Assembly (NCBI GenBank): GCA_021890795.1
Contig: JAKKUO010000016.1
Coordinates: 1-42,803 of the forward strand
Reading direction: 5' to 3'
DNA length: 42,803 nt
From: Bacillota bacterium
Lineage (GTDB): Bacteria; Bacillota; Sulfobacillia; Symbiobacteriales; ZC4RG38
The first letter of the stretch is position 1, and each line of letters starts with the position of its first letter. Under the pieces are notes generated by a model. It ran no database searches, was not told the DNA's origin, and saw only the letters and a program-made list of their open reading frames with translations. Positions 1,433-23,240 of this stretch are shown here, piece by piece. Both the position numbers and the translations under genes were made by a program.

Positions 1433-1446
1433 TTTAACCGGTTCAA
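1433..1446 (+). promoter_or_regulatory. Candidate LacI-type operator of the sugar operon
   Basis: TTTAACCGGTTCAA is a palindrome with a central CG and one mismatched pair, the usual shape of LacI-family operators. It lies about 175 bases before the sugar-binding protein gene, whose operon encodes a LacI-type regulator. The rest of the 1300-1619 gap holds a 14-base palindrome CTCCCGGCCGGGAG at 1381-1394. I could not place a convincing -35/-10 pair. Confidence 0.4.
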
Positions 1447-1619: not shown

Positions 1620-2909
1620 ATGCGCAGGAAACTGGCAGCACTCTTCGCGGCTTTGGTCGTGGCGGCCGCGACCCTGGCCGGGTGTGGCTCCAAGCAGGAG
1701 AGCGGCACGGAGCAGACGCAGTCGCAGGAGCAGACCGGGTCCCAGAGCTCCGGCCAGGAGAAGGTGACCATCCGGCTGACCGGGTGGGCCTCGTCGCCGG
1801 CGGAGACCAAGATCCTGGAGACGCTCCTGGACGGCTTCCGGGCGAAGTACCCGAACATCGAGGTCAGTTACGAGCCGGTTAACGCCGACTACGACAAGAA
1901 GCTCCAGGCGGACGCCGTCGCGGGGACCATGGCGGACGTCTTCTACATGGACGTGCTGTGGGCCCCCGACTGGATCAACAAGGGGCTGGCCATTCCGCTC
2001 GATGAGTACATCCAGGCCGAAGGGGTGGACCTCTCGGACTTCGAGGAGTCCCTCCTCCGGGGCTTCCAGATGAACGGCAAGACCTACGGCCTGCCCAAGG
2101 GGTACAGCACCCTCGGCCTCTTCTACAACGTGGAGATGTTTGAGCAGGCCGGGCTGCAGCCGCCCAAGACCTGGGACGAACTGGTGGAGACCGCCAAGGC
2201 TCTGACCAAGGGCGACGTGAAGGGCATCGTCATTACCCCGGACCACGCCCGGTTTGTGCCCTTCATCTACATGGCGGGCGGCAAGCTCTTCAACGAGGAC
2301 AAGACCGAAGCCTACTTCAACAGCCCCGAGGCGGTGCAGGCGGCTGAGTTCTACGTCGGTCTCGTGACCAAGCACAAGGTTGCGGACACCCCGAAGGCCC
2401 TGGGTGCCGAGTGGGCTGGCGACGCCTTCGCCAAGGGGCGGGCGGCCATGGCCATCGAGGGCCACTGGATGATCCCCTTCCTGCAGGAGAAGGCGCCCGA
2501 CCTCAAGTACGGCGTGGTGGAGCTGCCTGAGGGGCCGAAGGGCCGGTCGAACTTCGTCTTCACCGTCGCCTACGCGGTCTCCAAGGACTCCAAGCACCCG
2601 GCGGAGGCCTTCAAGCTGGTGAACTACCTGACCAGCGAAGAGGCCCAGCGGCAGATGATCCAGCTTGGCCTGGAGCTGCCCTCCCGGAAGTCCGTGGCCA
2701 AGGATCCCTTCTTCGCCGACAAGCCCGACCGGCAGGCCCTCATCGCCGGCGTCGCCTACGCCATCCCCTTCCAGTACACCGCCAACCATGCGCCGTACGT
2801 GGACGAGTTCGCCAAGGCGCTGGAGAACATGATCCTGAACGGGGCTGACCCCAAGACCGAGCTCGACAAGGTTCAGGCCAAGTTCGAGCAGGTAATCAAG
2901 CAGCAGTAA
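1620..2909 (+). CDS. CUT1 sugar ABC transporter substrate-binding lipoprotein
   Basis: A 429-residue family 1 extracellular solute-binding protein. The N-terminus is a lipoprotein signal: MRRK, a hydrophobic core and lipobox LAGC at about residues 17-20, then a Ser/Gln/Glu-rich linker that tethers the domain to the membrane. The rest has the MalE-like pattern, with VTIRLTGW near the start, DVFYMDVLWAPDW, and MAIEGHWMIPFL in the second lobe. The start is set by AAGGAGGAG (1605-1613), six bases before ATG; an upstream GTG/ATG region lacks a site. It is first in an operon with two permeases and two glycosidases. It should capture an oligosaccharide or alpha-glucoside; the exact sugar cannot be read from the sequence. 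Confidence 0.93.
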   Translation: MRRKLAALFAALVVAAATLAGCGSKQESGTEQTQSQEQTGSQSSGQEKVTIRLTGWASSPAETKILETLLDGFRAKYPNIEVSYEPVNADYDKKLQADAVAGTMADVFYMDVLWAPDWINKGLAIPLDEYIQAEGVDLSDFEESLLRGFQMNGKTYGLPKGYSTLGLFYNVEMFEQAGLQPPKTWDELVETAKALTKGDVKGIVITPDHARFVPFIYMAGGKLFNEDKTEAYFNSPEAVQAAEFYVGLVTKHKVADTPKALGAEWAGDAFAKGRAAMAIEGHWMIPFLQEKAPDLKYGVVELPEGPKGRSNFVFTVAYAVSKDSKHPAEAFKLVNYLTSEEAQRQMIQLGLELPSRKSVAKDPFFADKPDRQALIAGVAYAIPFQYTANHAPYVDEFAKALENMILNGADPKTELDKVQAKFEQVIKQQ

Positions 2910-2918
2910 TCCCCAACG

Positions 2919-2950
2919 GGGGGCCGGCACCCGAGGCCGGCCCCCTTTTT
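2919..2950 (+). terminator. Intra-operon terminator/attenuator after the binding-protein gene
   Basis: A 10-bp stem GGGGGCCGGC (2919-2928)/GCCGGCCCCC (2936-2945) followed by TTTTT. It lies ten bases after the binding-protein stop and just before the permease genes. Such a partial stop commonly makes binding protein exceed permease; a 3'-end mRNA-stabilising role is also possible. Confidence 0.8.
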
Positions 2951-2966
2951 GCCTGTCGGAGGAGGG

Positions 2967-3872
2967 ATGCCGGTGCTGAGGCGGCTGCGGAGCCAGAAGG
3001 TCCAGGACATCGTCACCGCCTACGTCTTCCTGGTGCCCACCCTGATGATCCTGGGCATCTTCGTCTTCGCTCCGGTGTTCTACGCGATCTACCTGAGTTT
3101 TTTTGACTACGATATCCTAGCCCCCCAGAACAGCCGTTTCGTCGGGTTGGGGAACTACCTGGAGGCCTTTCAGGATCCGGTCTTCAGAAAGGCCGTGAAG
3201 AACGTCATCTACTACGCAGCGGTGGTCGTGCCCACCCAGATGGTGCTGGCCTTTCTCCTCGCCCTGGGGGTGACCTCCGGCACCCGGTTCCAGAACTTCT
3301 TCCGGGTGGCCTACTTCATCCCCACGGTCACCTCTTCGGTCGTCATCTCCCACATGTTCCTGTACATCTACTCCACCACCGGTCTCCTGAACCACGTCCT
3401 GGGATGGTTCGGCATCCCTCCCCACAACTGGATGGAGGACGTCCGCACCGCCTTGCCGGCTATCATGGCGATGAACATCTGGACCACCGCGGGCCAGTAC
3501 ATGGTGATCTTCACCGCCGGCCTCAACGACATCCCGGAGGAGTACTACGAGGCGGCCAAGGTGGACGGGGCCACCTACTGGCAGCGGCTGTGGTACATCA
3601 CCCTGCCCCTCCTCCGCCCGGTCACCCTGTTCGTCAGCATGATGTCCGTGATCGGCACCCTGCAGCTCTTTGACCAGCCCTACCTGATGACCAACGGCCA
3701 GGGTGGCCCGGCGGACGCCACCATGACGGTCATGCTCTACATCTACAAGAACGCGTTCGGCGGCTATTTCCGCATGGGTTACGCCTCGGCCCTGTCGGTC
3801 CTGCTCTTCCTCCTGATCCTGGTCCTGTCGATCATCCAGCGGAAATGGTTCGGCCAGGAGGTGCAGTACTGA
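2967..3872 (+). CDS. CUT1 sugar ABC transporter permease (MalF/UgpA-like)
   Basis: A 301-residue membrane protein with six hydrophobic segments. It has the binding-protein-dependent transport EAA loop, EYYEAAKVDGATYWQRLWYI (about residues 192-211), where the ATPase docks. The start is either ATG 2967 or GTG 2973: GGAGG at 2958-2962 is only four bases from the ATG and ten from the GTG. It is separated from the next permease by three bases. The system needs an ATP-binding subunit that is not encoded nearby, so a shared MsmK/MalK-type ATPase elsewhere is likely. Confidence 0.92.
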   Translation: MPVLRRLRSQKVQDIVTAYVFLVPTLMILGIFVFAPVFYAIYLSFFDYDILAPQNSRFVGLGNYLEAFQDPVFRKAVKNVIYYAAVVVPTQMVLAFLLALGVTSGTRFQNFFRVAYFIPTVTSSVVISHMFLYIYSTTGLLNHVLGWFGIPPHNWMEDVRTALPAIMAMNIWTTAGQYMVIFTAGLNDIPEEYYEAAKVDGATYWQRLWYITLPLLRPVTLFVSMMSVIGTLQLFDQPYLMTNGQGGPADATMTVMLYIYKNAFGGYFRMGYASALSVLLFLLILVLSIIQRKWFGQEVQY

Positions 3873-3875
3873 GGT

Positions 3876-4709
3876 ATGGAACTGAGCAAAAACCGGACCG
3901 TCCGGGCCGTGGTTTTCCTGATCCTCAGCCTGTACGCCCTGATCACCATTACCCCGTTTCTCTGGTCGGTCTCCACCGCCCTGACCAAGACCCACCACGT
4001 GGACCTGCTGCTCCAGAACTGGGGCATCCCCCCGGAGCCCACCCTGGACAACTTCCGCTACCTGCTGGAGCACGGTGACTTCGGCCGCTGGTTCCTGAAC
4101 AGCTTGATCGTCACCGTCTGCACTACCGTTGGGAAGGCCTTCTTCAATTCCCTGGCGGGGTATGCCCTGGCCCGGATCGAGTTCCCCGGACGGGAGTTCT
4201 GGTTCTGGTTCATCATCTCGTCGATGATGATCCCGAACATCGTCATCCTGGTCCCCCGGTACCTCATCGTCCACCACCTCGGGTGGCTGAACCGGTACGA
4301 GGGGATGATTGTCCCCTCCCTGACCACCGCGTTCGGCGTCTTCCTGATGCGGCAGTTTTTCCTGACCATCCCGAAGGAACTGGAAGAGGCAGCCCGGATC
4401 GACGGCCTCTCCCGGTTCGGGATCTTCTGGCGGGTGGTCCTACCCCTCAGCCGGCCGGCCCTGGCGGCCCAGGTGATCTTCAACTTCATGGAGGAGTGGA
4501 ACAACTTCGTCTGGCCCAACCTGGTGGCCCGCAGCCGGGAGATGTACACCCTGACCGTTGGGCTCCAGGTCTTCAAGAATGAGCACTACAGCTTCTGGAA
4601 CCAGGTGATGGCAGGCTCGATGTTCCTTACCATTCCGATTATCATCGTCTACCTCATCTTCAACCGCTGGTTCATCCGCGGGATCACCATCAGCGGGATG
4701 AAGGGGTAG
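3876..4709 (+). CDS. CUT1 sugar ABC transporter permease (MalG/UgpE-like)
   Basis: A 277-residue inner-membrane permease with about six hydrophobic segments and the EAA motif ELEEAARIDGLSRFGIFWRV (about residues 168-187). It forms the second half of the channel with the preceding permease. ATG 3876 comes three bases after the previous stop; the nearest Shine-Dalgarno (GGAGGTGC) is inside the upstream gene, so translational coupling is likely. The C-terminus ends in the common short GITISGMKG tail of the family. Confidence 0.93.
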   Translation: MELSKNRTVRAVVFLILSLYALITITPFLWSVSTALTKTHHVDLLLQNWGIPPEPTLDNFRYLLEHGDFGRWFLNSLIVTVCTTVGKAFFNSLAGYALARIEFPGREFWFWFIISSMMIPNIVILVPRYLIVHHLGWLNRYEGMIVPSLTTAFGVFLMRQFFLTIPKELEEAARIDGLSRFGIFWRVVLPLSRPALAAQVIFNFMEEWNNFVWPNLVARSREMYTLTVGLQVFKNEHYSFWNQVMAGSMFLTIPIIIVYLIFNRWFIRGITISGMKG

Positions 4710-4725
4710 GGCTGGAGGGACCTTG

Positions 4726-6948
4726 ATGTCAAGTTGGCAGCCGCCGGTGCTGACCAAGAGCCACCGGCTGGGCGATCCCTACGTGGCGGCTGGCGACCGG
4801 GCGTACCTCATCGGCACCCAGGACGGCGACTTTCCGGACATGGGAGAGCACGTTCCCGGGGAGATGGGTGGGCTCTGGGCCCACCCAATCAAACTGTTGG
4901 ACGGCTTCTGGCTCCAGGTGGACGGCTGCTGGCTGCCCCGGGCAAGCCGCTTCACCCAAGGCCCCTTCTTCAACGAGCATACCTTCCACCTCGACGGGCT
5001 GACGGTCACCCGGCGCCAGTGGGTCCCGGACGGCCTTCCCGGCCTGGTGGTGAGCTACCGCTTTGAGGCCGCTGCGCCCCGGGAGCTGACCGTGGCCCTG
5101 GTGGCCCACACCGACCTGCGGCCGGTCTGGCTGGGGGAGCGGACGGGGATGATCGACGCCCCGGACGAGGGCGCCTTCGACGAGGAGCTGCAGGCGGCGG
5201 TGGTCCGGGACCGGGCCAACCCCTGGTGGGTGGTGGTGGGGAGCGACAGCCCGGTGGCGGGGGAGGTGGGACCCCACTGCCGGGGGCCACACCCCACCGG
5301 CGGCCGGGGGACGGGGATCCGGCTGGAGCGCCGGATCCCGGTCCGGCCCGGGGAGCCGGCGGAGGTCCGGTACTACGTCGCCGGTTCGGACCGGAGCCGG
5401 GAGGAGGCGGTGGAGGTCCTGGCCACCCTCCGGCAGCGGGCGGACGCGCTCTACGCGGCCAAGCTCCGGCGGTACGAGGAGATCGACCGGGGCGGCCGGG
5501 TCCTGGTCCCGGACCCGGACCTGATGGAGGCCTTTCGGTGGGTGAAGTTCAACTACGACCAGCTGGTCCGGGAGGTCCCGGGCCAGGGCCGGGGGCTCGG
5601 GGCCGGGCTGCCGGAGTACCCGTGGTGGTTCGGCACCGACAGCAGCTACGCACTTCTGGGGCTTCTGCCCCTGGGTCAGGAGCAACACCGGCTGGCGATG
5701 GAGACCCTGGAGCTTCTCGCCCGGGTCTCCCAGGCGACCAACGGCAACGGCCGGATCATCCACGAGGTGGTGACCAACGGCGCGGTCTTCCACCCCGGCA
5801 ACGCCCAGGAGACCCCTCACTTTGTGAAGGCGGTTTACCACGTTTTTCGCTGGGCGGGCGACCGTGAGTTTCTGCGGCGGATCTTTCCGATTTGCAAGCA
5901 GGGCGTTCTCGCCTGGTTGCTCCAAGAACGAGCCAGCGGCGATTGCCTTGCCCGGGGCTATGGGATCATTGAGATTGATGGACTTGACTTGAAGCTGCTC
6001 GACACGGCGGTCTACACCTACGAGGCGCTGGCGGCCCTGGCGGAACTGGCGCCGGAGGTCGGAGAAGACCCGGCCTTCGCACGCCGGTGCCGGGAGCTCG
6101 CCGCAGCGGTGAAAGAGGCGATCAACACCCGGTTCTGGTTGCCGGAGGAGGGGCTGTACGCCGACCTCCTGGCCACCCCGGCCGAGATGCTGCCTCGCCT
6201 CGCCCAGTGGGAGGCGGAAGCGATCCGCACCGGCCGGCACCACGCGGTGCTCCACCTGCGCGAACTCCAGGAGCGGGCCCGGCGGCTGCCGCCTGACCAC
6301 GAGACGGGGTGGCTCCTCAAGAACTGGATCATCAACACCCCCCTGGAGGCGGGGGTGGCGCCCCGGGAGTACGCCCTCCTGGCCCTGGGGCGCATGGGGG
6401 GACCGGAGTTCTGCGGCCACCACGGCCTCTTCCTCTCGGGCCTCTACCGGGACCACATCATGACCATCAACACCGGGGTCCAAGCGGTGGCCGAGGCGAT
6501 GTACGGCCGGGCCCAGGCGGCCCGGGAATGGATGCTCCGCATCGCCCGGACCCTGCACCTGCGCACCCCGGGTTCTCCCAGCGAGATGTCGCCGGATTAC
6601 GGCTGCTTTGTCCAGGCGTGGACTGGCTATGGCCTCTTCTGGCCCCTGGTGGTCATGCTGGGGATTCGCCCCCACGCCGCCACCCGGGAGCTGTGCCTCA
6701 GCTGGCCCAACCTCCCGGCGGACTGGGAGCCCTTTGCCTGGGAGGAAGTGGCCATCGGGGACAGCCGGTTCAGCTTCTACTTCCGGGACGGCCGGTACGA
6801 GGTGGCGCTTATCTCCGGTGCCCCCTGGCAGGTGACCGTCCAGGCCCCTGCAGGACAGGCCATCCGGATGGTGGGCCGGGCCACCTCCGCCGGGGCGGAG
6901 GTGCGGTTCACCCTGGATCGGGAGCCGGTGGCTTTGGAGGTGACGTGA
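4726..6948 (+). CDS. Six-hairpin glycosidase, debranching-enzyme related
   Basis: A 740-residue cytosolic protein (no signal peptide) of the (alpha/alpha)6-barrel type, related to the amylo-alpha-1,6-glucosidase group. An N-terminal beta-sandwich-like region (residues 1-250) precedes the helical barrel. The barrel includes WWFGTDSSYALLGLLPL (about 301), GNGRIIHEVVTNG (about 341) and MSPDYGCFVQAWTGYGLFWP (about 621). A beta-rich tail follows. ATG 4726 has GGAGGGA at 4714-4720; a TTG three bases upstream is too close to that site. It directly precedes the LacI/glycosidase gene, whose TTG start lies immediately after its TGA. It probably hydrolyses the imported oligosaccharide. Exact family and linkage specificity are not resolved; alpha-rhamnosidase-like or GH15/GH63-like activity cannot be excluded. 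Confidence 0.7.
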   Translation: MSSWQPPVLTKSHRLGDPYVAAGDRAYLIGTQDGDFPDMGEHVPGEMGGLWAHPIKLLDGFWLQVDGCWLPRASRFTQGPFFNEHTFHLDGLTVTRRQWVPDGLPGLVVSYRFEAAAPRELTVALVAHTDLRPVWLGERTGMIDAPDEGAFDEELQAAVVRDRANPWWVVVGSDSPVAGEVGPHCRGPHPTGGRGTGIRLERRIPVRPGEPAEVRYYVAGSDRSREEAVEVLATLRQRADALYAAKLRRYEEIDRGGRVLVPDPDLMEAFRWVKFNYDQLVREVPGQGRGLGAGLPEYPWWFGTDSSYALLGLLPLGQEQHRLAMETLELLARVSQATNGNGRIIHEVVTNGAVFHPGNAQETPHFVKAVYHVFRWAGDREFLRRIFPICKQGVLAWLLQERASGDCLARGYGIIEIDGLDLKLLDTAVYTYEALAALAELAPEVGEDPAFARRCRELAAAVKEAINTRFWLPEEGLYADLLATPAEMLPRLAQWEAEAIRTGRHHAVLHLRELQERARRLPPDHETGWLLKNWIINTPLEAGVAPREYALLALGRMGGPEFCGHHGLFLSGLYRDHIMTINTGVQAVAEAMYGRAQAAREWMLRIARTLHLRTPGSPSEMSPDYGCFVQAWTGYGLFWPLVVMLGIRPHAATRELCLSWPNLPADWEPFAWEEVAIGDSRFSFYFRDGRYEVALISGAPWQVTVQAPAGQAIRMVGRATSAGAEVRFTLDREPVALEVT

Positions 6949-9900
6949 TTGGCGCGGCCGACCATCCGGGACGTGGCCCGGGCCGCGGGGGTGTCGGTGG
7001 CAACCGTCTCCTACGTCCTCAACGGCAGTCCGGCCATCTCCGCCGAGACGCGGGAGCGGGTGCTCCAGGCCATCGCGGCGCTGGACTACCGGCCGAACCG
7101 CCTTGCCCGGGGGTTGGCCAACCGCAAGACCGATACGCTGGCCCTCCTGCTTCCCACGGCCCGATCGGTGAGCGACCCCTTTCTCTTCCGATTCATATCC
7201 GGCGTGTCGGAGGCCGCTGCCCAGGCCGGCTACAGCCTCCTGCTGGTTCCCGGCCGGCCGGGGCTGGCCGCCCTGGAGGAGCTGGTCAAGGACCGCCGGG
7301 CAGACGGCGTCATCCTGATGGAGGTTGAGGTGCGGGACCCCCGCATCGACTACCTCCTGACCGCGAACTTTCCCTTCGTCCTCTTTGGCCGGTCCTTGGA
7401 GCACCCGGAGGTCCTGTGGGTCGACCTGGACAACGAACTGGGGGCGATGCTGGCCACCCGACACCTCCTGGCCCTGGGTCACCGGCGCATCGGGTACATC
7501 GGCGCGGATCGGCGGCTGGTCTTCGCCCGTCACCGGTACCAGGGGCACCTGACCGCCCTCCGGGAGGCCGGGGTGCCGGTGGATCCGGACCTCCTGGTGG
7601 AGGGAGACCTGACGGAACGCTCCGGCTTCCGGTGCATGGAGCGGCTCCTGGCCCTGCCCTCGCCGCCCACCGCGGTCTTTGCCGCCTGCGACGCCATGGC
7701 CATCGGGGCCAAGCAGGCCCTCGCGGCCGCCGGGCTGCGGGTGCCCCAGGACGTAGCTGTGGTTGGATTTGACGACAGCCCGATTGCGGAGTTTGCCATT
7801 CCCCCCCTGACCACCGTCCGGCAGCCCACCTTCGAACTGGGGGCGGAGGCGGTGCGGCTGCTGGTGTCCCGCCTCCGGGGAGAGGCCCAGCCGGGCGAGC
7901 ACCGGCTTCTCCCGCCGGAACTGGTGGTCCGGACTTCCTGCGGGGCCCAGCGAGTGGTAGAGACGGCACCTGGAGGAGACCTTCGTATGCCTGAACTTGC
8001 ACTGAAGGAAGCTGACCTATTCCTGGTTTGCAGCGACAACGGCGATGTCGTCGGCGGCAGCAGCGCACAGGGCCTCTACTTCCGTGATACCCGCTACCTG
8101 AGCCAGCTCGAACTGCGGGTGAGCGGGGAGCCGGCACACCTGCTCTCCGCCTCCGCCGCAGAGAATCTCCAGATGCGGTTCTATTACCTGGGGCGGAAGA
8201 TTGAGCCGAGCCCCGGGGACCCGGATCCCCTCACCTCCCTCGGCATCCAGCGCCGGCGGGTGATCGATCAGGGGGTGCTCTACGAGCAGATCGAACTGAT
8301 CCAGTACGGCACCCGGCCGGTAAACGTCCAGGTTGAGCTCCGGTTCGGCGCCGACTTCCGGGACCTCTTCGAGGCCCGGGGGATGGTCCGGCCCGCCCGG
8401 GGGGTTGACCTGCCGCCGGAGGTGGGTACCGACCGGGTGATCCTCGGTTACCGGGGTCTGGACCACCAGGTGCGCCGGACCCTGGTGGTGGCCCAGACGC
8501 CGCCGGCGGAGATGGACGGCCGGCGGGCGGTCTGGACCCTCTCCCTCGCCGCGGGCCAGCGGGCTCAACTCTCCCTGGCGGTGGCTCCCGAGCGGGACGG
8601 TGGGTTCCCGGAGATCCGGTCCTTCAACGAAGCCCTGGAGCGGCTGCAGCGGTCCTACGCGGAGTGGCTCCAGCAGACCGCAGTGGTGGAGACCGACAAT
8701 CCTCTGGTCAACCGCACCCTGGAGCGGAGCCGGCTGGACCTCCGGGCCCTGCTCACGGACCTCGGCTATGGGCCCATGACCGTGGCCGGTATCCCGTGGT
8801 TTGCCGTGCCTTTCGGCCGGGACAGCGTCATCACCGCGCTGCAGACCCTGATGCTCAACCCCTCCCTGGCCGTGGGCACCCTCAAGACCCTCGCGGCTCT
8901 GCAGGGGCGGGAGGTGAATCCGGCCCGGCTGGAGGAGCCCGGCAAGATCCTCCACGAGATGCGGTCCGGCGAGATGGCGAACCTCGGTGAGATTCCCTAT
9001 GGCCGGTATTACGGCACCGTGGACGCCACCCCGCTCTTCCTGGTACTGGTCGGGGAGACCTACCGCTGGACCGGCGACCTGGAGCTGGCGGCCAGCCTGC
9101 TGCCCCAGATCAAGGCGGCCCTCGAGTGGATCCACAAGTACGGCGACCTGGACGGCGACGGCTTTGTGGAGTACCAGAGCGATCCCCAGGGCCTGAAGGT
9201 CCAGTCGTGGAAGGATTCCCACGACTCCATGGCCCACCGGAGCGGCGAGCTGGCGAGCGCTCCCATGGCCGTCTCCGAGGTACAGGGTTACGTCTACGAC
9301 GCCTACCGCAAGCTCGCCCCGCTGCTGCGGGACCTCGCCGCGGCGGGTTACGGCGACGACCTCGCCGCGCTGGCCGCGGAGCTGGAGGCCCGGGCCGATG
9401 CCCTTCAGGCCCGGTTTGCCCAGGCCTTCTGGATGCCGGACCGGCAGTTCTACGCCATCGCCCTGGACCGGGAGAAGCGGCAGGTGGGGACCGTCTCCTC
9501 CAATCCGGGGCACTGCCTCTGGTCTGGGATCGTCCCACCGGAGCACCGGCGGGCGGTAGCCGACCTGCTGATGAGCGACCGGCTCTTCTCCGGTTGGGGC
9601 GTCCGGACCCTGGCCGAGGGGGAAACGACCTACAACCCGATGAGCTACCACAACGGGTCGGTCTGGCCCCACGACAACGCGATCATCGCCCTGGGGCTGA
9701 AGCGGGCCGGCTTCGACGAGTACGCCGCCCGGCTGGCCGAGGCCCTCTTCAAGGTGGCCAACTACTTCCCGTACAACCGGCTGCCGGAACTCTTCTGCGG
9801 CCACCCGGCCAGCGAGGGCGAACCGGTGCAGTACCCGGTCGCCTGCTCGCCCCAGGCGTGGGCAGCGGCGACGCCCTTCATGCTCACCCAGGCGATCCTG

Positions 9901-10080
9901 GGGCTGGAGCCCGACGCGCCCCGGGGCACCCTGCGGCTGCGGCCCCGGCTGCCAGCCAGCATCGGCTGGATGCGGGTCCAAAACCTGCGAGTGGGCCGGG
10001 CCGTGGTGGACCTGGAGGTGACCCGGGACCGCACCGAGGCCAAGGTCCGGGAGGGCGCGCTGCAGGTGATCGTGGAGTAA
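6949..10080 (+). CDS. LacI-family regulator fused to a debranching-enzyme-like glycosidase
   Basis: One open frame of 1043 codons encodes two complete proteins. Residues 1-331 are a LacI/GalR repressor: helix-turn-helix TIRDVARAAGVSVATVSYVL (residues 5-24), hinge near RLARGLANRKT, then a periplasmic-binding-like sugar-sensing domain ending in ELVVRTSCG. After a 15-residue linker, residues 347-1043 form a 697-residue glycosidase: a GDE-type N-terminal beta domain starting MPELALKEADLFLV, then an (alpha/alpha)6 barrel with WFAVPFGRDSVITAL (about 616-630) and SYHNGSVWPHDNA (about 900). Start is TTG 6949, with GGAGG at 6936-6940 eight bases away. The linker is encoded by what looks like a ribosome binding site and leads into an ATG. 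The frame therefore looks like two genes whose stop was lost. It could make a DNA-tethered enzyme, the free enzyme, or both. Specificity unknown. Confidence 0.85.
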   Translation: MARPTIRDVARAAGVSVATVSYVLNGSPAISAETRERVLQAIAALDYRPNRLARGLANRKTDTLALLLPTARSVSDPFLFRFISGVSEAAAQAGYSLLLVPGRPGLAALEELVKDRRADGVILMEVEVRDPRIDYLLTANFPFVLFGRSLEHPEVLWVDLDNELGAMLATRHLLALGHRRIGYIGADRRLVFARHRYQGHLTALREAGVPVDPDLLVEGDLTERSGFRCMERLLALPSPPTAVFAACDAMAIGAKQALAAAGLRVPQDVAVVGFDDSPIAEFAIPPLTTVRQPTFELGAEAVRLLVSRLRGEAQPGEHRLLPPELVVRTSCGAQRVVETAPGGDLRMPELALKEADLFLVCSDNGDVVGGSSAQGLYFRDTRYLSQLELRVSGEPAHLLSASAAENLQMRFYYLGRKIEPSPGDPDPLTSLGIQRRRVIDQGVLYEQIELIQYGTRPVNVQVELRFGADFRDLFEARGMVRPARGVDLPPEVGTDRVILGYRGLDHQVRRTLVVAQTPPAEMDGRRAVWTLSLAAGQRAQLSLAVAPERDGGFPEIRSFNEALERLQRSYAEWLQQTAVVETDNPLVNRTLERSRLDLRALLTDLGYGPMTVAGIPWFAVPFGRDSVITALQTLMLNPSLAVGTLKTLAALQGREVNPARLEEPGKILHEMRSGEMANLGEIPYGRYYGTVDATPLFLVLVGETYRWTGDLELAASLLPQIKAALEWIHKYGDLDGDGFVEYQSDPQGLKVQSWKDSHDSMAHRSGELASAPMAVSEVQGYVYDAYRKLAPLLRDLAAAGYGDDLAALAAELEARADALQARFAQAFWMPDRQFYAIALDREKRQVGTVSSNPGHCLWSGIVPPEHRRAVADLLMSDRLFSGWGVRTLAEGETTYNPMSYHNGSVWPHDNAIIALGLKRAGFDEYAARLAEALFKVANYFPYNRLPELFCGHPASEGEPVQYPVACSPQAWAAATPFMLTQAILGLEPDAPRGTLRLRPRLPASIGWMRVQNLRVGRAVVDLEVTRDRTEAKVREGALQVIVE
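7972..7989 (+). promoter_or_regulatory. Internal ribosome binding site and ATG for a free glycosidase
   Basis: GGAGGAG (7972-7978) is followed after eight bases by an in-frame ATG (7987) at the exact boundary between LacI and glycosidase domains. This is one of the strongest initiation signals in the window. Initiation here gives a 697-residue glycosidase ending at 10080, the usual length for a stand-alone enzyme of this type. The sequence shows the site; use of both starts is inference. Confidence 0.75.
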
Positions 10081-12778: not shown

Positions 12779-13111
12779 TGCCGCACCTCCTGCGCCGAAG
12801 GATGGCGGCTCTGGCCGGCGGCGCTGGCCCCCGGCTGCGGGGCAGTGCCGGACCCGGGTTCTCGCCGGCCGGAGCCGTTGTCAGACGGCGATAGTGTGCC
12901 GGCAGGGGGCGGCGGCCATGCCTTTTTCGCCGGGGTGGCGCAGGACTCCTGCCGCTGCATGGGGCGGTGGCCGCCGGGCCATCCTTAGGTTGGTGCCAGG
13001 CCGCTGCCAGGGCCCAGGGAAGAAGAAGCCCCGGACCTCCGGGAGAGCCGGGGCGGGATTCCTGCGGTGGCCGGAGCCGCTGCGGCGGCCGGAAGAATGG
13101 GAGGGACGGCC
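12779..13111. other. Divergent intergenic region
   Basis: GC-rich spacer between the small-protein operon and the glucan phosphorylase gene. It holds the palindrome GCAGGACTCCTGC (12940-12952) and a hairpin with CCCCGG/CCGGGG arms (about 13029-13053). A related palindrome lies at 14995-15010. I see no convincing gene or -35/-10 pair. Confidence 0.4.
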
Positions 13112-14722
13112 GTGGACAGGCCCCCGGCGCAGGTAGCGTACTTCTGCATGGAGTATGGGTTGGACGATGCCCTGCCCATCTACGCCGGCGGCCTGGGGGT
13201 CCTGGCCGGCGACCACCTCCGGGCCGCCCGGGACCTCGGCCTGCCCCTGGTGGGCATCGGCATCCTCTGGCGCCAGGGATATACCCACCAGGTGATCGGG
13301 GAGGACGGCCGGCCCCTGGACGTCTACCCGCCCGTGCCCACCGACCGGCTGACGGACACCGGAATCCGGGTCCGGCTCCGGCTCCGGGGGCGGGAGGTGG
13401 CGGTGCGGGCCTGGTACACCGAGGCCTTCGGCAACGCGCCCCTCTACCTCCTGGACACCAACCTGCCGGAGAACGCCTACCCGGACCGTCGGATCACCGA
13501 CCGGCTCTACGGGGGCACGGCGGAGGACCGGGTGCTCCAGGAGACGGTGCTCGGGGTTGGCGGGGTCCGGCTCCTGCGGGCCCTGGGGCTCGCTCCCCAG
13601 GTCTACCATTTTAATGAAGGGCACGCGGTGCTGGCCGGCGTGGAGCTGATCCGGGAGCAACTGGCAGAAGGGCGCACCTTCGCCGAGGCCCTGGCCGCGG
13701 TCCGGAGCCGGGTGGTCTTCACCACCCACACCCCGGTGCCCGCGGGAAATGAGGTCCACCGGCTGGAACTCCTGGAGGCCGTGGGAGCGTCCGCCGGGCT
13801 CAGCCGGCAGCAGATGGCCGCCATCGGCGGGGATCCCTTCGGGATGACGGTGGCGGGGCTCAGGCTCGCCCGGATTGCCAACGGGGTCTCCGCGCTTCAC
13901 GGCGAAACCGCCCGGCAGATGTGGGCCGGGGTGGAGGGGGCCGCACCCATCATCCACATCACCAACGGGGTCCACCCCGGGGTCTTCCAGGACCCCCGGA
14001 TCCGGGCGGCCATGGCGGCGGGGGGCGACCTCTGGGCCGCGCACATGGCCTGCAAGGCGGAGCTGCTGCAGGAGGTGGGCCGCCGGACGGGCCACTGGCT
14101 CCGGCCGGAGGTCCTGACCGTCGGCTTTGCCCGGCGGGCGGCGCCCTACAAGCGGCCGGACCTCTTTTTCTACGACCCGGACCGGGCCGAGGCGCTGCTG
14201 CGCGAGGGGCTGGTGCAACTGGTCTTCGCCGGCAAGGCCCACCCCCTGGACGAGGCCGGGAAGGCCATGGTGACCCGGCTGGTGGAGTGGGCCCGGCGGT
14301 ACCCCGAGCAGATGGTCTTCCTGGAGAACTACAGCCTGGGGCTCGGCCGGATTCTGACCCGGGGCTGCGACCTGTGGCTCAATAACCCCCAGCGGCCCCT
14401 GGAGGCCAGCGGCACTTCGGGGATGAAGGCGGCGATGAACGGCGTTCTGAACCTGTCGATCCTGGACGGCTGGTGGGCCGAGGCCTGCGTGCACGGGGTC
14501 AACGGCTGGGGGTTCGGCGACGGCTCCCCGGGGCCGGACCAGGCGGCCCGGGACGCGGAGGCCCTCCACCGGGTGCTGCTGGACGAGGTGATCCCGACCT
14601 TCTACCACCGGCGGCCGACCTGGGTGGCGATGATGCGGGAGAGCATCGCCATGGCCCAGGACCGGTTCTCCGCCCACCGGATGGTGGAAGAGTACCGGAC
14701 CCAGATGTACGGGCTGGGGTGA
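13112..14722 (+). CDS. glgP: Alpha-glucan phosphorylase, short form (GT35)
   Basis: A 536-residue phosphorylase of the short bacterial type, releasing glucose-1-phosphate from alpha-1,4-glucans in the cytosol. Visible signatures are VAYFCMEYGLDDALPIYAGG (about residues 8-27), GLAPQVYHFNEGHAV, VFTTHTPVPAGNEVHRLEL, RRAAPYKRPDLFF and the pyridoxal-phosphate lysine segment LEASGTSGMKAAMNG (about 430-444). The C-terminal glucose-site segment SILDGWWAEAC follows. GTG 13112 is preferred because GGGAGGG (13099-13105) is seven bases upstream; ATG 13097 is possible. The extra N-terminal domain of the longer family members is absent. No glgC, glgA or glgB neighbours. It could act on products of the debranching-type enzymes at 4726-10080. 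Confidence 0.92.
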   Translation: MDRPPAQVAYFCMEYGLDDALPIYAGGLGVLAGDHLRAARDLGLPLVGIGILWRQGYTHQVIGEDGRPLDVYPPVPTDRLTDTGIRVRLRLRGREVAVRAWYTEAFGNAPLYLLDTNLPENAYPDRRITDRLYGGTAEDRVLQETVLGVGGVRLLRALGLAPQVYHFNEGHAVLAGVELIREQLAEGRTFAEALAAVRSRVVFTTHTPVPAGNEVHRLELLEAVGASAGLSRQQMAAIGGDPFGMTVAGLRLARIANGVSALHGETARQMWAGVEGAAPIIHITNGVHPGVFQDPRIRAAMAAGGDLWAAHMACKAELLQEVGRRTGHWLRPEVLTVGFARRAAPYKRPDLFFYDPDRAEALLREGLVQLVFAGKAHPLDEAGKAMVTRLVEWARRYPEQMVFLENYSLGLGRILTRGCDLWLNNPQRPLEASGTSGMKAAMNGVLNLSILDGWWAEACVHGVNGWGFGDGSPGPDQAARDAEALHRVLLDEVIPTFYHRRPTWVAMMRESIAMAQDRFSAHRMVEEYRTQMYGLG

Positions 14723-14749: not shown

Positions 14750-14785
14750 GGCCTCCCTCTCCGCGGCGGTGCGCGGGGGGAGGCC
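14750..14785 (+). terminator. Hairpin after glgP
   Basis: GGCCTCCC (14750-14757) pairs with GGGAGGCC (14778-14785), with an inner CGCG/CGCG. There is no T-run, so it is either a weak terminator or an mRNA 3'-end stabiliser. Confidence 0.4.
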
Positions 14786-14876
14786 CAGGACGGATTGGGA
14801 CCTGGGTCCCGGTGGAATCGGGACCGCAGCCGGTGGTCCGGGTCGAGAACCAATGGCTATGTTTAATGCAGGGACC

Positions 14877-14914
14877 CCTTCCGCAGGAAACCCTTCCGCA
14901 AGACTCCTTCCGCA
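14877..14914 (+). repeat. Three C-rich direct repeats in the oxoprolinase leader
   Basis: CCTTCCGCA occurs at 14877-14885, 14892-14900 and 14906-14914 (steps of 15 and 14). The array is followed 32 bases later by a terminator hairpin, so it may be part of a small RNA or attenuated leader. CCTTCC is complementary to purine-rich ribosome binding sites, which is suggestive only. Confidence 0.6.
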
Positions 14915-14945
14915 CAGTGCTACTGGACCCCTCCTCCCTCCCAGC

Positions 14946-14975
14946 GGCCCCGCACCTCGGGTGCGGGGCCTTTCT
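14946..14975 (+). terminator. Terminator upstream of the oxoprolinase gene
   Basis: An 11-bp stem GGCCCCGCACC (14946-14956)/GGTGCGGGGCC (14960-14970), loop TCG, then TTTCT. It lies 180 bases before the next start, so it either ends glgP readthrough or attenuates the downstream gene. The 14976-15155 remainder has the palindrome GGCAGGAATCCCTGCC (14995-15010) and no gene. Confidence 0.75.
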
Positions 14976-15155
14976 CCGTCTGCAGCCCGCCCCCGGCAGG
15001 AATCCCTGCCAGTCTTGGGAAAGATCCTGCCAGGACGCCTGTCTTTGTGCCAGGGGGCCGGTGTTTCTGCCTGTGCCGGCCATCCGGCCCGGCCCCGGAT
15101 GGTCCGGAGGGGTCCCGGCCCACCTCCGGGCGAGAGTGCTTGCTGGGGTGAGAGC

Positions 15156-17042
15156 ATGCAACCGTGGCCAAAGGTCCTGCCCTGTGGGGATCAGGCGGCG
15201 CTGGTGCGGCTCGGGGAGGGGGTGGATCCGGAGGTCAACCGGCGGGTCCACCGGCTGGCGGCCGCGCTGGGGCAACGGCGGCACCCTGCGGTGCGGGAGG
15301 TGGTGCCGGGTTACGACAGCCTGCTGGTGGAATACGACCCCCTCCGGCTCCGCTGGGCTGACCTGCTGCGGCTGATCGAGGAGGCGGCGGGGGCGGGGGA
15401 GGATGGGGAAGCCACCGGTCGGGTCGTGGAGATCCCGGTGCTCTACGGCGGCGAGGCCGGCCCGGACCTGCCCTGGGTAGCCGAGCAGACGGGCCTCAGC
15501 CCCGAAGAAGTGATCCGCCGGCACGCGGCGGGCCGGTACCGGGTCTACTGCCTCGGCTTCAGCCCGGGCTTTCCCTACCTGGGCAGCCTGGACCCGGCCC
15601 TCCGGGTCCCCCGGCTGCCGGATCCCCGGCCCCGGGTGCCGGCGGGAAGCGTCGGGATCGCCGGGGACCAGACGGGGATCTACCCCGCGGAGACCCCGGG
15701 GGGCTGGCGGCTCATCGGCCGGACGCCCCTACGGCTCTTTGACCCCTGGCGGGAGGAACCCTTCCTCCTGAGGCCCGGGGACGAGGTGCGGTTTGTCCCG
15801 GTGGACCCGGCGGCCTTCCAGCGCCTCGCCGCGGCCCAGCCGGAGCCGGTCCGCCCCGGGATCCGGGGCTCGGGGGTGGGGCTGCGGATCCTCAGCCCCG
15901 GGCTGATGACCACGGTCCAGGATCTGGGCCGACGGGGCTACCAGGCCTACGGGGTGCCGGTGGCCGGTGCGGTGGACGACTGGGCGCTTCGGGTGGGCAA
16001 CTGGATCCTGGGGAACCGGTCCCGGGCCGCGGGGCTGGAGGTTACCCTGACGGGGCTGGAGGTGGAGTTCACCGGCCCGGTGGCCTTCTGCCTCACCGGG
16101 GCCTCGGCCCCGGCGGAGCTGATTCCCGCCGGCGGCGGATCGCCCCGGCCGGTGCCCGGGTGGACCGCAGTCCTGGCGGGCCCCGGCGACCGGCTGCGGG
16201 TCGGACCTGCGGTCCGGGGCTGCCGGACTTACCTCTGCGTCGCCGGCGGGATCGATGTGCCACCGGTGCTGGGCAGCCGCTCCGAGGACCTCTTCGCGGG
16301 GCTGGGTCCCCTGGGCCGGCCCCTGCAGGCCGGAGACTGGCTGCCGGTAGGCCTGCCCATCCTGCCTCCCGCGGACCTGGCCGGCCGGCGGCTGCCCCCG
16401 GACGGGATCCCCGACTACCCGCCGGAACTCCGGCTCCGGGTGGTGATGGGCCCCCAGGCGGACCGGTTCACCCCGGAGGCGGTGGAGCGGCTGCTCACCG
16501 GCGAGTTCCACGTTGGCCCCCGGTCCAACCGGCAGGCCCTGGAACTGGCGGGGCCTTCCCTGGACCACCGGGACGGGGCGGACATCGTCTCCGAGGGAAA
16601 TCCCCTGGGAGCGATCCAGGTGCCGGCCTCCGGGCGGCCCTTCCTCCTCCTCCGGAACCGGCAGACCCTGGGCGGGTACGCCAAGATCGGGGTGGTGATC
16701 CGGCAGGATGCGGTGGCGGCGGGCCAGCTACCCCCCGGCGGCCGGATCCGGTTCCAGGAGGTAGACCTGGCCGAGGCCCACGCCCTGGCCTGGGCGGAGC
16801 GCCGGCGGCTGGCCCAGGTCCGGCGCTACCTCCTGCAGCAGCCCCTGGTCAGCTTCGCCGGCATGCTCCCGGTGGATCCCCTGCAGCTTTCCGCCGCCGT
16901 GGTGCCGGGCGCTGCCCCAGCCGCCGACCCGGCCGGCGCCGCCGGGCCGGGATCCCCGGAAGGTTCCCCGGCCGGTCCCCGGCACCTCCGCATCCGGGTG
17001 GCGGGGGTGGAGTTCGACGTCTGGGTGGAAGAGGAGGAGTGA
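15156..17042 (+). CDS. Fused 5-oxoprolinase subunits B and C (PxpB-PxpC)
   Basis: A 628-residue fusion. Residues 1-230 are PxpB/KipI (allophanate hydrolase subunit 1-like), with DSLLVEYDP, VEIPVLYGGEAGPDL and YCLGFSPGFPYLGSL. Residues about 245-580 are PxpC/KipA (subunit 2-like), with ILSPGLMTTVQDLGRRGYQA, GVPVAGAVDDWALRVGN, SNRQALELAGP and GGYAKIGVV. With PxpA these form the ATP-dependent 5-oxoprolinase that opens 5-oxoproline to glutamate. The last 45 residues are a Pro/Ala linker and a short beta segment. ATG 15156 is chosen by homology; its ribosome site (GGGGTGAG) is weak. No pxpA is in the window. Kip-type signalling is an alternative, but the B-C fusion favours the enzyme. Confidence 0.88.
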   Translation: MQPWPKVLPCGDQAALVRLGEGVDPEVNRRVHRLAAALGQRRHPAVREVVPGYDSLLVEYDPLRLRWADLLRLIEEAAGAGEDGEATGRVVEIPVLYGGEAGPDLPWVAEQTGLSPEEVIRRHAAGRYRVYCLGFSPGFPYLGSLDPALRVPRLPDPRPRVPAGSVGIAGDQTGIYPAETPGGWRLIGRTPLRLFDPWREEPFLLRPGDEVRFVPVDPAAFQRLAAAQPEPVRPGIRGSGVGLRILSPGLMTTVQDLGRRGYQAYGVPVAGAVDDWALRVGNWILGNRSRAAGLEVTLTGLEVEFTGPVAFCLTGASAPAELIPAGGGSPRPVPGWTAVLAGPGDRLRVGPAVRGCRTYLCVAGGIDVPPVLGSRSEDLFAGLGPLGRPLQAGDWLPVGLPILPPADLAGRRLPPDGIPDYPPELRLRVVMGPQADRFTPEAVERLLTGEFHVGPRSNRQALELAGPSLDHRDGADIVSEGNPLGAIQVPASGRPFLLLRNRQTLGGYAKIGVVIRQDAVAAGQLPPGGRIRFQEVDLAEAHALAWAERRRLAQVRRYLLQQPLVSFAGMLPVDPLQLSAAVVPGAAPAADPAGAAGPGSPEGSPAGPRHLRIRVAGVEFDVWVEEEE

Positions 17043-20896: not shown

Positions 20897-23203
20897 CTAG
20901 CCCCGGTGTCCGGCCGCCCGGGCCGGGGCAGCTTCGGAGGGCTGCTCCCCGGGCAGGGCCACCGGGCGCAGGTGCCGGAGCCCCCGGACTACCAGGAGCA
21001 GCAGAGGCAGGATGCCCAGGGCGATGAAGATGGAGTCCGGCACAATCCGGAGCCAGAGGAGCAGCCGCACCTCCGGCCGGGTGTAGAACTCCGGCAGCCG
21101 GGCGGTCCAGTAGCCGCCTTCGATGGCCTGCTGCAGCTGCAGGAAGCCCACCGGCAGGAGGGTGATGAGGATCATCCCCATCAGGCCGATGTTCAGGCCC
21201 CAGAAGGAGAGGTTCACCAGCCGCTCGGACCAGGCCTCGGGCCGGACGATGTTCCGGAGCACGTAGAGCAGCAGGGCAACGGCCAGGAAGCCGTAGACCC
21301 CGGCAAGGGCCGCGTGGCCGTGGGTGGGGGTGAGCCAGGTGCCGTGCTCGAAGTAGTTGACCGCGGGCAGGTTGATCAGGAAGCCCAGGATGCCGGCGCC
21401 GAAGAGGTTCCACAGGGCCACCGCGATGAGGAACCGGAAGGTGCCCTTGTAGGGGAAGCTCCTGCCGGCCTGCTCCAGCAGCCGGTACTGGCCGTGGGCC
21501 TCCAGGATCAGCAGGGTGAGGGGAATGACCTCCATCGCGCTGAAGACGCTGCCCAGGGCCAGCCACAGCTCCGGCCCGCCGGTGAAGTAGTAGTGGTGGC
21601 CGGTGCCGACCACGCCGCTGGCCAGGAGCAGGATCAGCTGGAAGTAGACGGCCCGGAGGACGCTCTCCCGGCGAACGAGCCCCATGCCGGTGAGCAGGTT
21701 GGCGATCACCACCACGGTGAAGACCTCAAAGAAGCCCTCGACCCAGAGGTGGATCACCCACCAGCGCCAGTAGTCGGCGATGGTGACGTGGCTGTCGGGC
21801 CGGATCATCAGCCCGGCCATGTAGAACATGACGATGCCGATGCTGCTGTACAGGAGCAGGTGGGTGAGCCCGCCCCGGTCTCCCTCCCGGGCCAGCCCCT
21901 TCCGAAGCCCCCGGTAGACCAGGGCCAGCCAGACAACGAGCCCGCCGGTCAGCAGGAGCTGCCAGATGCGACCCAGCTCCAGGTACTCCCAGCCCTGCTG
22001 GCCCAGGAGCCAGTTGTACTGGGGGTTCAGCTTCCCCATGACCCCCAGCCACTGGCCGGCCAGGGAGCCGACCACCACCACCGCCAGGGCCCCCAGCAAG
22101 AGGTACGCCAGCCGGTGCTGTCCCCGGGGCTCCTCGCCGCTGATCTGGGGGGCCAGGTAGAGGCCGGTGGCCACCCAGGCGGTGGCGATCCAGAAGATGG
22201 CCAGCTGCACGTGCCAGGACCGGGCGACGCTGAAGGGCAGGATCGGGTTCAGGTCCAGCCCCCAGAAGTCCGGGGCGGAGTACTGGTGGGCCATGTAGCC
22301 GCCCATCAGGGACTGGAGCAGGAAGAGCGCCACCACCACCAGGAGGTAGAGGCCGGTCGCCCGCTGGGTCGGGGTGATGGTCTGGGGCAGCTCCACCTGG
22401 GGGATGCGCTCCACGGGCTCCATCTCCAGCTGGTAGCGGTGCTGGAGGTAAAGGACTACCGCCAGCCCCAGGATGAAGATGGCCACGCTGACCGCGCTCC
22501 AGACCACCGAACCGGCGGTGACGGTATTCCCCGCCTCCGGATCGTACGGCCAGTTGTTGGTGTAGGAGTAAACCTCACCGGGACGGCGGGCGGCGCTCAG
22601 CCACCCGGTCCAGAAGAAGTAGTGGGCCAGGGCCTCCCGGGGCCGGCTGCCGTCCGGCGCCGTGGCGGGCACCAGGCCCGGGGGCAGGGTGCCGTCGGCC
22701 GCACCCTGTTCGAACGCCTCGTGGTAGTAGTCGACAAGCCGCTCCAGGGCCGCTGCCTGGCCGGCGGTGAGGGTCAGGGTGCCGGTGGCCGGGTCGTAGC
22801 GGTTCGCCGTCAGCTCCTGGCGGACCTGCTCGGCGACGGCGGCCCGCTGTTCGTCCTCAAGCTCGGCAAAGGGGCGCCCGAAGCGCTCCTGGGCGTAGTA
22901 ATCCTGCATGAACCGGGCGGTGAGGTGCAGGGCTTCGGCGGTGAAGTCCGGGCCCTTGTACGACCCGTGGCCCAGGATCGAGCCGTATTGCATCAGGCCG
23001 TAGCCCAGGAAGGCCTGCTGGCCGGCCAGGATGCTCTCCCGGGTGGCCAGCACGTTGCCCTGGGGGTCCACCACCCGCTCGGGCAGGGGCGGGGCCTTAC
23101 GGTACGTCTGCAGCCCGGCCACGAGGAGCACCAGGAGGCTGAGGACCAGGGTGACGGCCAGCCCCCACTTCCACCGGCCGGAGTTGCCCGTCTCGGGTCG
23201 CAT
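20897..23203 (-). CDS. norZ: Quinol-dependent nitric oxide reductase (qNOR)
   Basis: A 768-residue single-subunit reductase, 2 NO to N2O with electrons from quinol. A membrane anchor (about residues 12-32) and a long extracellular domain with no CxxCH haem c site (to about residue 225) are typical of qNOR rather than cNOR. The 12-helix haem-copper oxidase core follows. It includes WWVIHLWVEGFFEVF (about 482-496, His ligands and the glutamates near FeB), GVVGTGHHYYFTG (about 530) and THGHAALAGVYGFLA (about 625). Start is ATG 23203: GGAGGG is six bases upstream, whereas ATG 23209 abuts it. Single gene with its own promoter and terminator. Role may be denitrification or NO detoxification; no nirK/nirS or nosZ is nearby. 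Confidence 0.95.
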   Translation of the reverse strand: MRPETGNSGRWKWGLAVTLVLSLLVLLVAGLQTYRKAPPLPERVVDPQGNVLATRESILAGQQAFLGYGLMQYGSILGHGSYKGPDFTAEALHLTARFMQDYYAQERFGRPFAELEDEQRAAVAEQVRQELTANRYDPATGTLTLTAGQAAALERLVDYYHEAFEQGAADGTLPPGLVPATAPDGSRPREALAHYFFWTGWLSAARRPGEVYSYTNNWPYDPEAGNTVTAGSVVWSAVSVAIFILGLAVVLYLQHRYQLEMEPVERIPQVELPQTITPTQRATGLYLLVVVALFLLQSLMGGYMAHQYSAPDFWGLDLNPILPFSVARSWHVQLAIFWIATAWVATGLYLAPQISGEEPRGQHRLAYLLLGALAVVVVGSLAGQWLGVMGKLNPQYNWLLGQQGWEYLELGRIWQLLLTGGLVVWLALVYRGLRKGLAREGDRGGLTHLLLYSSIGIVMFYMAGLMIRPDSHVTIADYWRWWVIHLWVEGFFEVFTVVVIANLLTGMGLVRRESVLRAVYFQLILLLASGVVGTGHHYYFTGGPELWLALGSVFSAMEVIPLTLLILEAHGQYRLLEQAGRSFPYKGTFRFLIAVALWNLFGAGILGFLINLPAVNYFEHGTWLTPTHGHAALAGVYGFLAVALLLYVLRNIVRPEAWSERLVNLSFWGLNIGLMGMILITLLPVGFLQLQQAIEGGYWTARLPEFYTRPEVRLLLWLRIVPDSIFIALGILPLLLLVVRGLRHLRPVALPGEQPSEAAPARAAGHRG

Positions 23204-23240
23204 GCTCATCCCTCCCTGTCAGGGCAGGTTTTCGCTTCCC

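Follow-up and report, generated by a model that had tools for sequence, protein, structure and literature searches.

A single frame for a sugar repressor and a glucosidase

The locus raises the question of whether a sugar repressor and a catabolic enzyme are truly encoded as one protein, whether the enzyme can also be made alone, and how such a fusion arose. The window, i.e., the whole stretch of 42,803 nucleotides analysed here, contains at 6949..10080 (+ strand) a single open frame with a TTG start that encodes 1043 amino acids: a LacI-type repressor, a joint, and an amylo-alpha-1,6-glucosidase (lacI-gde). The TTG codon at 6949 directly follows the TGA of the upstream gene, whose end overlaps a Shine-Dalgarno sequence (GGAGGTG; 6936..6942, + strand) placed 6 nt before the start. 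This sequence is the same in G001 (MAG ZC4RG38; 94% DNA identity), a second species and the only further one found in the window genus. The Pfam domains, all above cut-off, are LacI HTH (residues 5-50), Peripla_BP_3 (171-331), GDE_N_bis (352-543), and MGH1-like_GH (692-936), and in the AF2 model of the fusion both halves are confident (mean pLDDT 90.6). The open 1043-codon frame and the two complete parts recognised by Pfam, which span residues 5-331 and 352 to about 1040, confirm the claim of an earlier note on this DNA that repressor and glycosidase share one frame.

The LacI-family repressor half (residues 1-332; 6949..7944, + strand) was assigned by its HTH domain (PF00356; 72.5 bits, cut-off 27, residues 5-50), its effector domain (PF13377; 153.7 bits, residues 171-331), the AF2 model, and Foldseek, which matched it to RbsR, CcpA, PurR, and CelR. 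With LacI/GalR factors of the RbsR, CcpA, and CelR type it shares the HTH and the sugar-binding core, and a candidate operator of their kind, an even palindrome centred on CG, precedes the sugar operon, but it carries an enzyme of about 700 residues after the HTH and effector domain. A large survey of LacI regulators described a rigid domain structure, HTH plus effector-binding domain (PMC4052901).

The glucosidase half (697 aa; 7987..10080, + strand) matches PF14742 (181.8 bits), PF22422, and PF06202. Its relative in the PDB is the amylo-alpha-1,6-glucosidase of Thermococcus gammatolerans (7vma; E 1.8e-101, 33% identity; Foldseek TM 0.91 by target length). The likeness to this and other PF14742 debranching enzymes extends to the whole-chain fold and to the conserved acidic motifs WKDS and LPEL (LPELF), which are present in the window and in every full-length fused relative aligned. 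The T. gammatolerans enzyme, however, stands alone, whereas that of the window is fused behind a repressor. The fusion is the only PF14742 gene found in the window genome, and thus, without an internal start all PF14742 enzyme would be tied to the repressor.

PutA, BirA, and NadR are bifunctional regulator-enzymes, or trigger enzymes. The predicted window protein resembles them in combining a DNA-binding regulator and a metabolic enzyme in one chain, but they belong to other DNA-binding and enzyme families, and the LacI half of the window already has its own sugar sensor. Elsewhere in the window, the 5-oxoprolinase subunits PxpB and PxpC, usually encoded by separate genes, lie in one 757-aa frame (14769-17042; CT_C_D then CT_A_B), and a nitric-oxide-reductase-type subunit at 20897-23209 (- strand) contains a NorB cytochrome-c-like domain and a COX1 domain.

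The operon and its putative operator

The fusion gene is the last of an operon encoding, in order, a substrate-binding protein (SBP), two permeases, a glycosidase-like protein, and LacI-GDE, all on the + strand. The sugar ABC transporter SBP (1620..2909; PF01547/PF13416) is encoded in a frame that opens at 1575, with the ATG at 1620 located after GGAAGGAGGAG. It is followed by two ABC permeases (2949..3872 and 3876..4709; both PF00528) and by a glycoside-hydrolase-like protein of 741 aa (4723..6948). The latter gave a weak PF22422 match below cut-off and, in the searches performed, no NCBIfam match, no PDB sequence match, and no curated family above cut-off; a homologue occupies the same operon position in G004, a genome in which lacI and gde are separate. 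An alpha-glucan phosphorylase (13067..14722, + strand; TIGR02094, 626.7 bits, cut-off 191.7) is encoded 3 kb downstream, outside the operon, which is consistent with alpha-glucan use.

Upstream of the operon, an even palindrome with a central CG, TTTAACCGGTTCAA (1433..1446), is a putative LacI-type operator, and it is identical in G001. Even palindromes centred on CG have been described for LacI regulators (PMC4052901). Before the SBP gene of G004 the palindrome recurs as TTTAACCGGTTCAC and TTGAAACGGTTAAA, in intergenic sequence that otherwise differs from that of the window. The window genome contains two exact matches to TTNAACCGGTTNAA; one is the putative operator at 1433, and the second (C20) was set aside, being inside a coding frame.

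The joint and the internal start

The usual LacI end, LVVRTSCG, is followed in the window by 14 in-frame codons (7945..7986, + strand) and then by an ATG (7987..7989, + strand) where separate homologues begin. Within these codons a Shine-Dalgarno sequence, GGAGGAG (7972..7978, + strand), is followed by ACCTTCGT and the ATG in frame, with a spacing of 8 nt, so that the in-frame internal start proposed earlier is indeed there (GGAGGAG-8-ATG at 7987). The linker of 15 residues described in the same note also exists, but its length is 13-14 codons from the usual LacI end to the ATG. Among the 174 in-frame ATG, GTG, and TTG codons inside the five operon genes, a strong Shine-Dalgarno-like stretch precedes nine, and ATG 7987 is the only ATG of these nine. 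Structure of the mRNA around ATG 7987 is low, at the 17th percentile for the window and the 6th for G001, which is weak evidence.

In composition and predicted structure the joint resembles a former intergenic spacer. Its GC3 is 0.38 (codons 334-346) versus 0.89 for the whole frame, it belongs to the lowest-GC3 stretch of the frame, and it is disordered in the AF2 model (pLDDT under 50 at residues 335-347). Among the codons that follow the LacI end, two (CAG and CGA) would each become a stop through a single C-to-T change. The separate gde gene of G004 has AAGGAGG before its ATG, and its product can be aligned from the very first residues, with its start at the position of ATG 7987; the Bacilli genes are arranged likewise. 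Since the joint is spacer-like in GC3, disordered, and carries the start signals of the enzyme itself, it is probably a former intergenic spacer and the fusion young, which fits the suggestion that a recent loss of the stop may be all that happened. The one frame, the two complete domains, and the strong internal start likewise support the idea that two products are possible from one mRNA: a working repressor-enzyme fusion would be expected, together with free enzyme started at 7987.

Fused and separate relatives

The same two-domain architecture was found in about 25 other genomes, mostly of acid-loving, Sulfobacillus-like bacteria. Of the 154 genomes of the class, 49 contain PF14742, which in about 19, Sulfobacillus-like, is in one frame with LacI; three copies of these class fusions end at contig ends. 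A scan of one genome per species yielded further fusions, including three MAGs labelled Actinomycetes. All the fused copies checked that had enough flank adjoin an SBP-permease-permease set, located downstream on the same strand or divergent. The Sulfobacillus-type joints have no combined internal Shine-Dalgarno sequence and ATG, their GC3 is near the average of their own genes, and many share the protein motif TPxTxxxEPVLKxG, the linker being conserved in most. Because these joints lack an internal start and mostly keep a conserved protein linker, the architecture is, as far as the sequences tell, a conserved and obligate fusion in Sulfobacillus-like bacteria, a result that goes beyond the earlier note.

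Relatives with a stop at the joint were also found. Tumebacillus, Alkalicoccus, Alicyclobacillus, and one G013 copy have lacI and gde as distinct, adjacent genes ahead of the same SBP-permease-permease set; in the separate Bacilli pairs, 26-114 nt lie between the lacI stop and the start of gde. In G004, a genome from the same taxonomic order as the window, the genes run lacI, SBP, permeases, glycoside hydrolase, and gde, each one separate. None of 37 PF14742-positive Bacilli had a fusion-sized frame. In a sample of 398 genomes of the phylum, a frame of more than 900 aa was found in the window alone, but further ones can be missed where contigs are incomplete, G013 being an example.

Several long frames were rejected as fusions. 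Those with PF14742 in the Actinomycetes G679, G750, and G714 have N-terminal extensions without LacI-like sequence that look like GC-rich open stretches, and a 1162-aa frame of G459 (L092) has no recognised domain before the GDE. In a one-contig Sulfobacillus-like genome (L116 of G512, 3601-6623), the fused LacI half is broken by an insert and a frame change, and the GDE half is intact. At four loci with separate genes (L138, L139, L140, and L063), a repressor-type palindrome, for example CGAAAACGTTTTCG or CCAAAACGTTTTGG, occurs in the lacI-gde interval and once more before lacI or at its beginning; this suggests that gde may have its own operator there.

No description of a LacI-debranching-enzyme fusion was found in the open literature, most subscription papers being outside the search. 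This suggests that, as far as the open literature goes, the combination is new, each half coming from a known family.

Proposed working of the fusion

Taken as a whole, the explanation that we consider likely is a sugar-uptake operon with a young in-frame lacI-gde fusion plus free enzyme, and a separate, older fusion in Sulfobacillus-like bacteria. Since the frame is open, every ribosome completing the LacI half goes on into the glucosidase, which would yield the 1043-residue repressor-enzyme. At the retained Shine-Dalgarno sequence and ATG 7987, additional ribosomes would be able to start and produce the 697-residue glucosidase in free form. A start at 7987 would permit more enzyme than repressor. 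The LacI half would dimerise and repress the operon from the palindrome at 1433 for as long as it has not bound an imported oligosaccharide of the branched alpha-glucan kind or a product of it. By homology to 7vma, the glucosidase half is predicted to take alpha-1,6-linked glucose off such imported oligosaccharides.

A passive fusion comes close to an even chance. According to this alternative, the stop was lost by chance, each half functions as before the fusion, the tether plays no part in regulation, and most of the catalysis is due to free enzyme started at 7987. It overlaps the explanation just given, which claims no role for tethering. A joint resembling a plain intergenic spacer, the intact start signals of the enzyme, separate neighbours as the state in Bacilli, and the restriction to two close species all favour it, but Sulfobacillus-like genomes have a permanent fusion of the same genes in which the linker is conserved and an internal start is lacking. 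That permanent fusion implies that tethering is at least tolerated in the long term and perhaps selected.

One fusion origin or two

In the preferred explanation, the fusion of the window genus would be a recent product of adjacent lacI and gde genes, joined through loss of the lacI stop, and the Sulfobacillus-like fusion of the same two genes would be separate, older, and obligate. In trees of both halves, the window, G004, and the Sulfobacillus fusions are near one another, and the GDE of G004 was sister to that of the window in two trees (SH-aLRT 99 and 97). More careful trees did not separate the window, G004, and the rest, and a one-sided grouping had bootstrap frequencies of 36% and 52%. 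AU tests accepted a single fused clade (p-AU 0.685, in a run where a few fused GDE rows were shortened, and 0.564), and a repeat tree had most of these rows at corrected length. Since the trees are compatible with one origin as well as with two, what mainly argues for two is how the joints are built: the Sulfobacillus type is read as an old obligate fusion, and that of the window as a recent one made of former spacer and probably separate from it.

It is rather unlikely that one ancient fusion gave rise to both types, being split later in G004, with the internal start regained or retained. Three points speak for it: by their LacI halves, the window, G004, and the Sulfobacillus fusions cluster (SH-aLRT 83-90), the AU tests accept a single fused clade, and the VQSWKDS motif is shared. 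Against it, the window joint is spacer-like with separate-gene start signals and the Sulfobacillus joints have neither, G004, which belongs to the same taxonomic order as the window, has separate genes, and its GDE was sister to that of the window in the two trees cited, a placement that the careful trees do not settle.

Reality of the open joint

In G001 the joint is open as in the window, without indels and with the Shine-Dalgarno sequence and ATG unchanged; its copy is split over two contigs, and the joint is inside one of them. An assembly or sequencing error concealing a stop between lacI and gde is therefore a highly improbable explanation: G001 is a metagenome assembly with the copy over two contigs, and the assembly of the window is in 103 contigs, but two assemblies that differ at 6% of sites have the same open joint without an indel.

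Between the window and G001, dN/dS is 0.11 for the LacI half and 0.13 for the GDE half (dS 0.19), which argues that both halves are maintained under purifying selection. Fourteen open codons could persist by chance because the two species are close, and the joint is too short a stretch for its conservation in two species to show selection. A stretch of about 200 nt (6935-7130) that covers the LacI start and HTH is 100% identical in DNA to G001, although elsewhere about 14% of third positions differ, and the G001 contigs break just past it; the cause may be gene conversion, or a mixture of strains in the assembly of G001.

Meaning of the fusion

A stronger proposal, which we consider unlikely, is that tethering is the point. 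The repressor at the operator would carry the enzyme that makes or destroys its inducer, and the switch would read local flux as well as concentration. The design would have arisen at least twice, and in the window genus the ratio of bound to free enzyme would be set by the internal start.

A conserved fusion of LacI with a catabolic enzyme departs from the rigid two-domain build described for the family. The probably young case, which still has the start signals of a separate gene, stands beside an old obligate one and may show how such fusions begin. The pair makes it possible to ask whether, and why, a sugar repressor would be joined to the enzyme that works in its own pathway.
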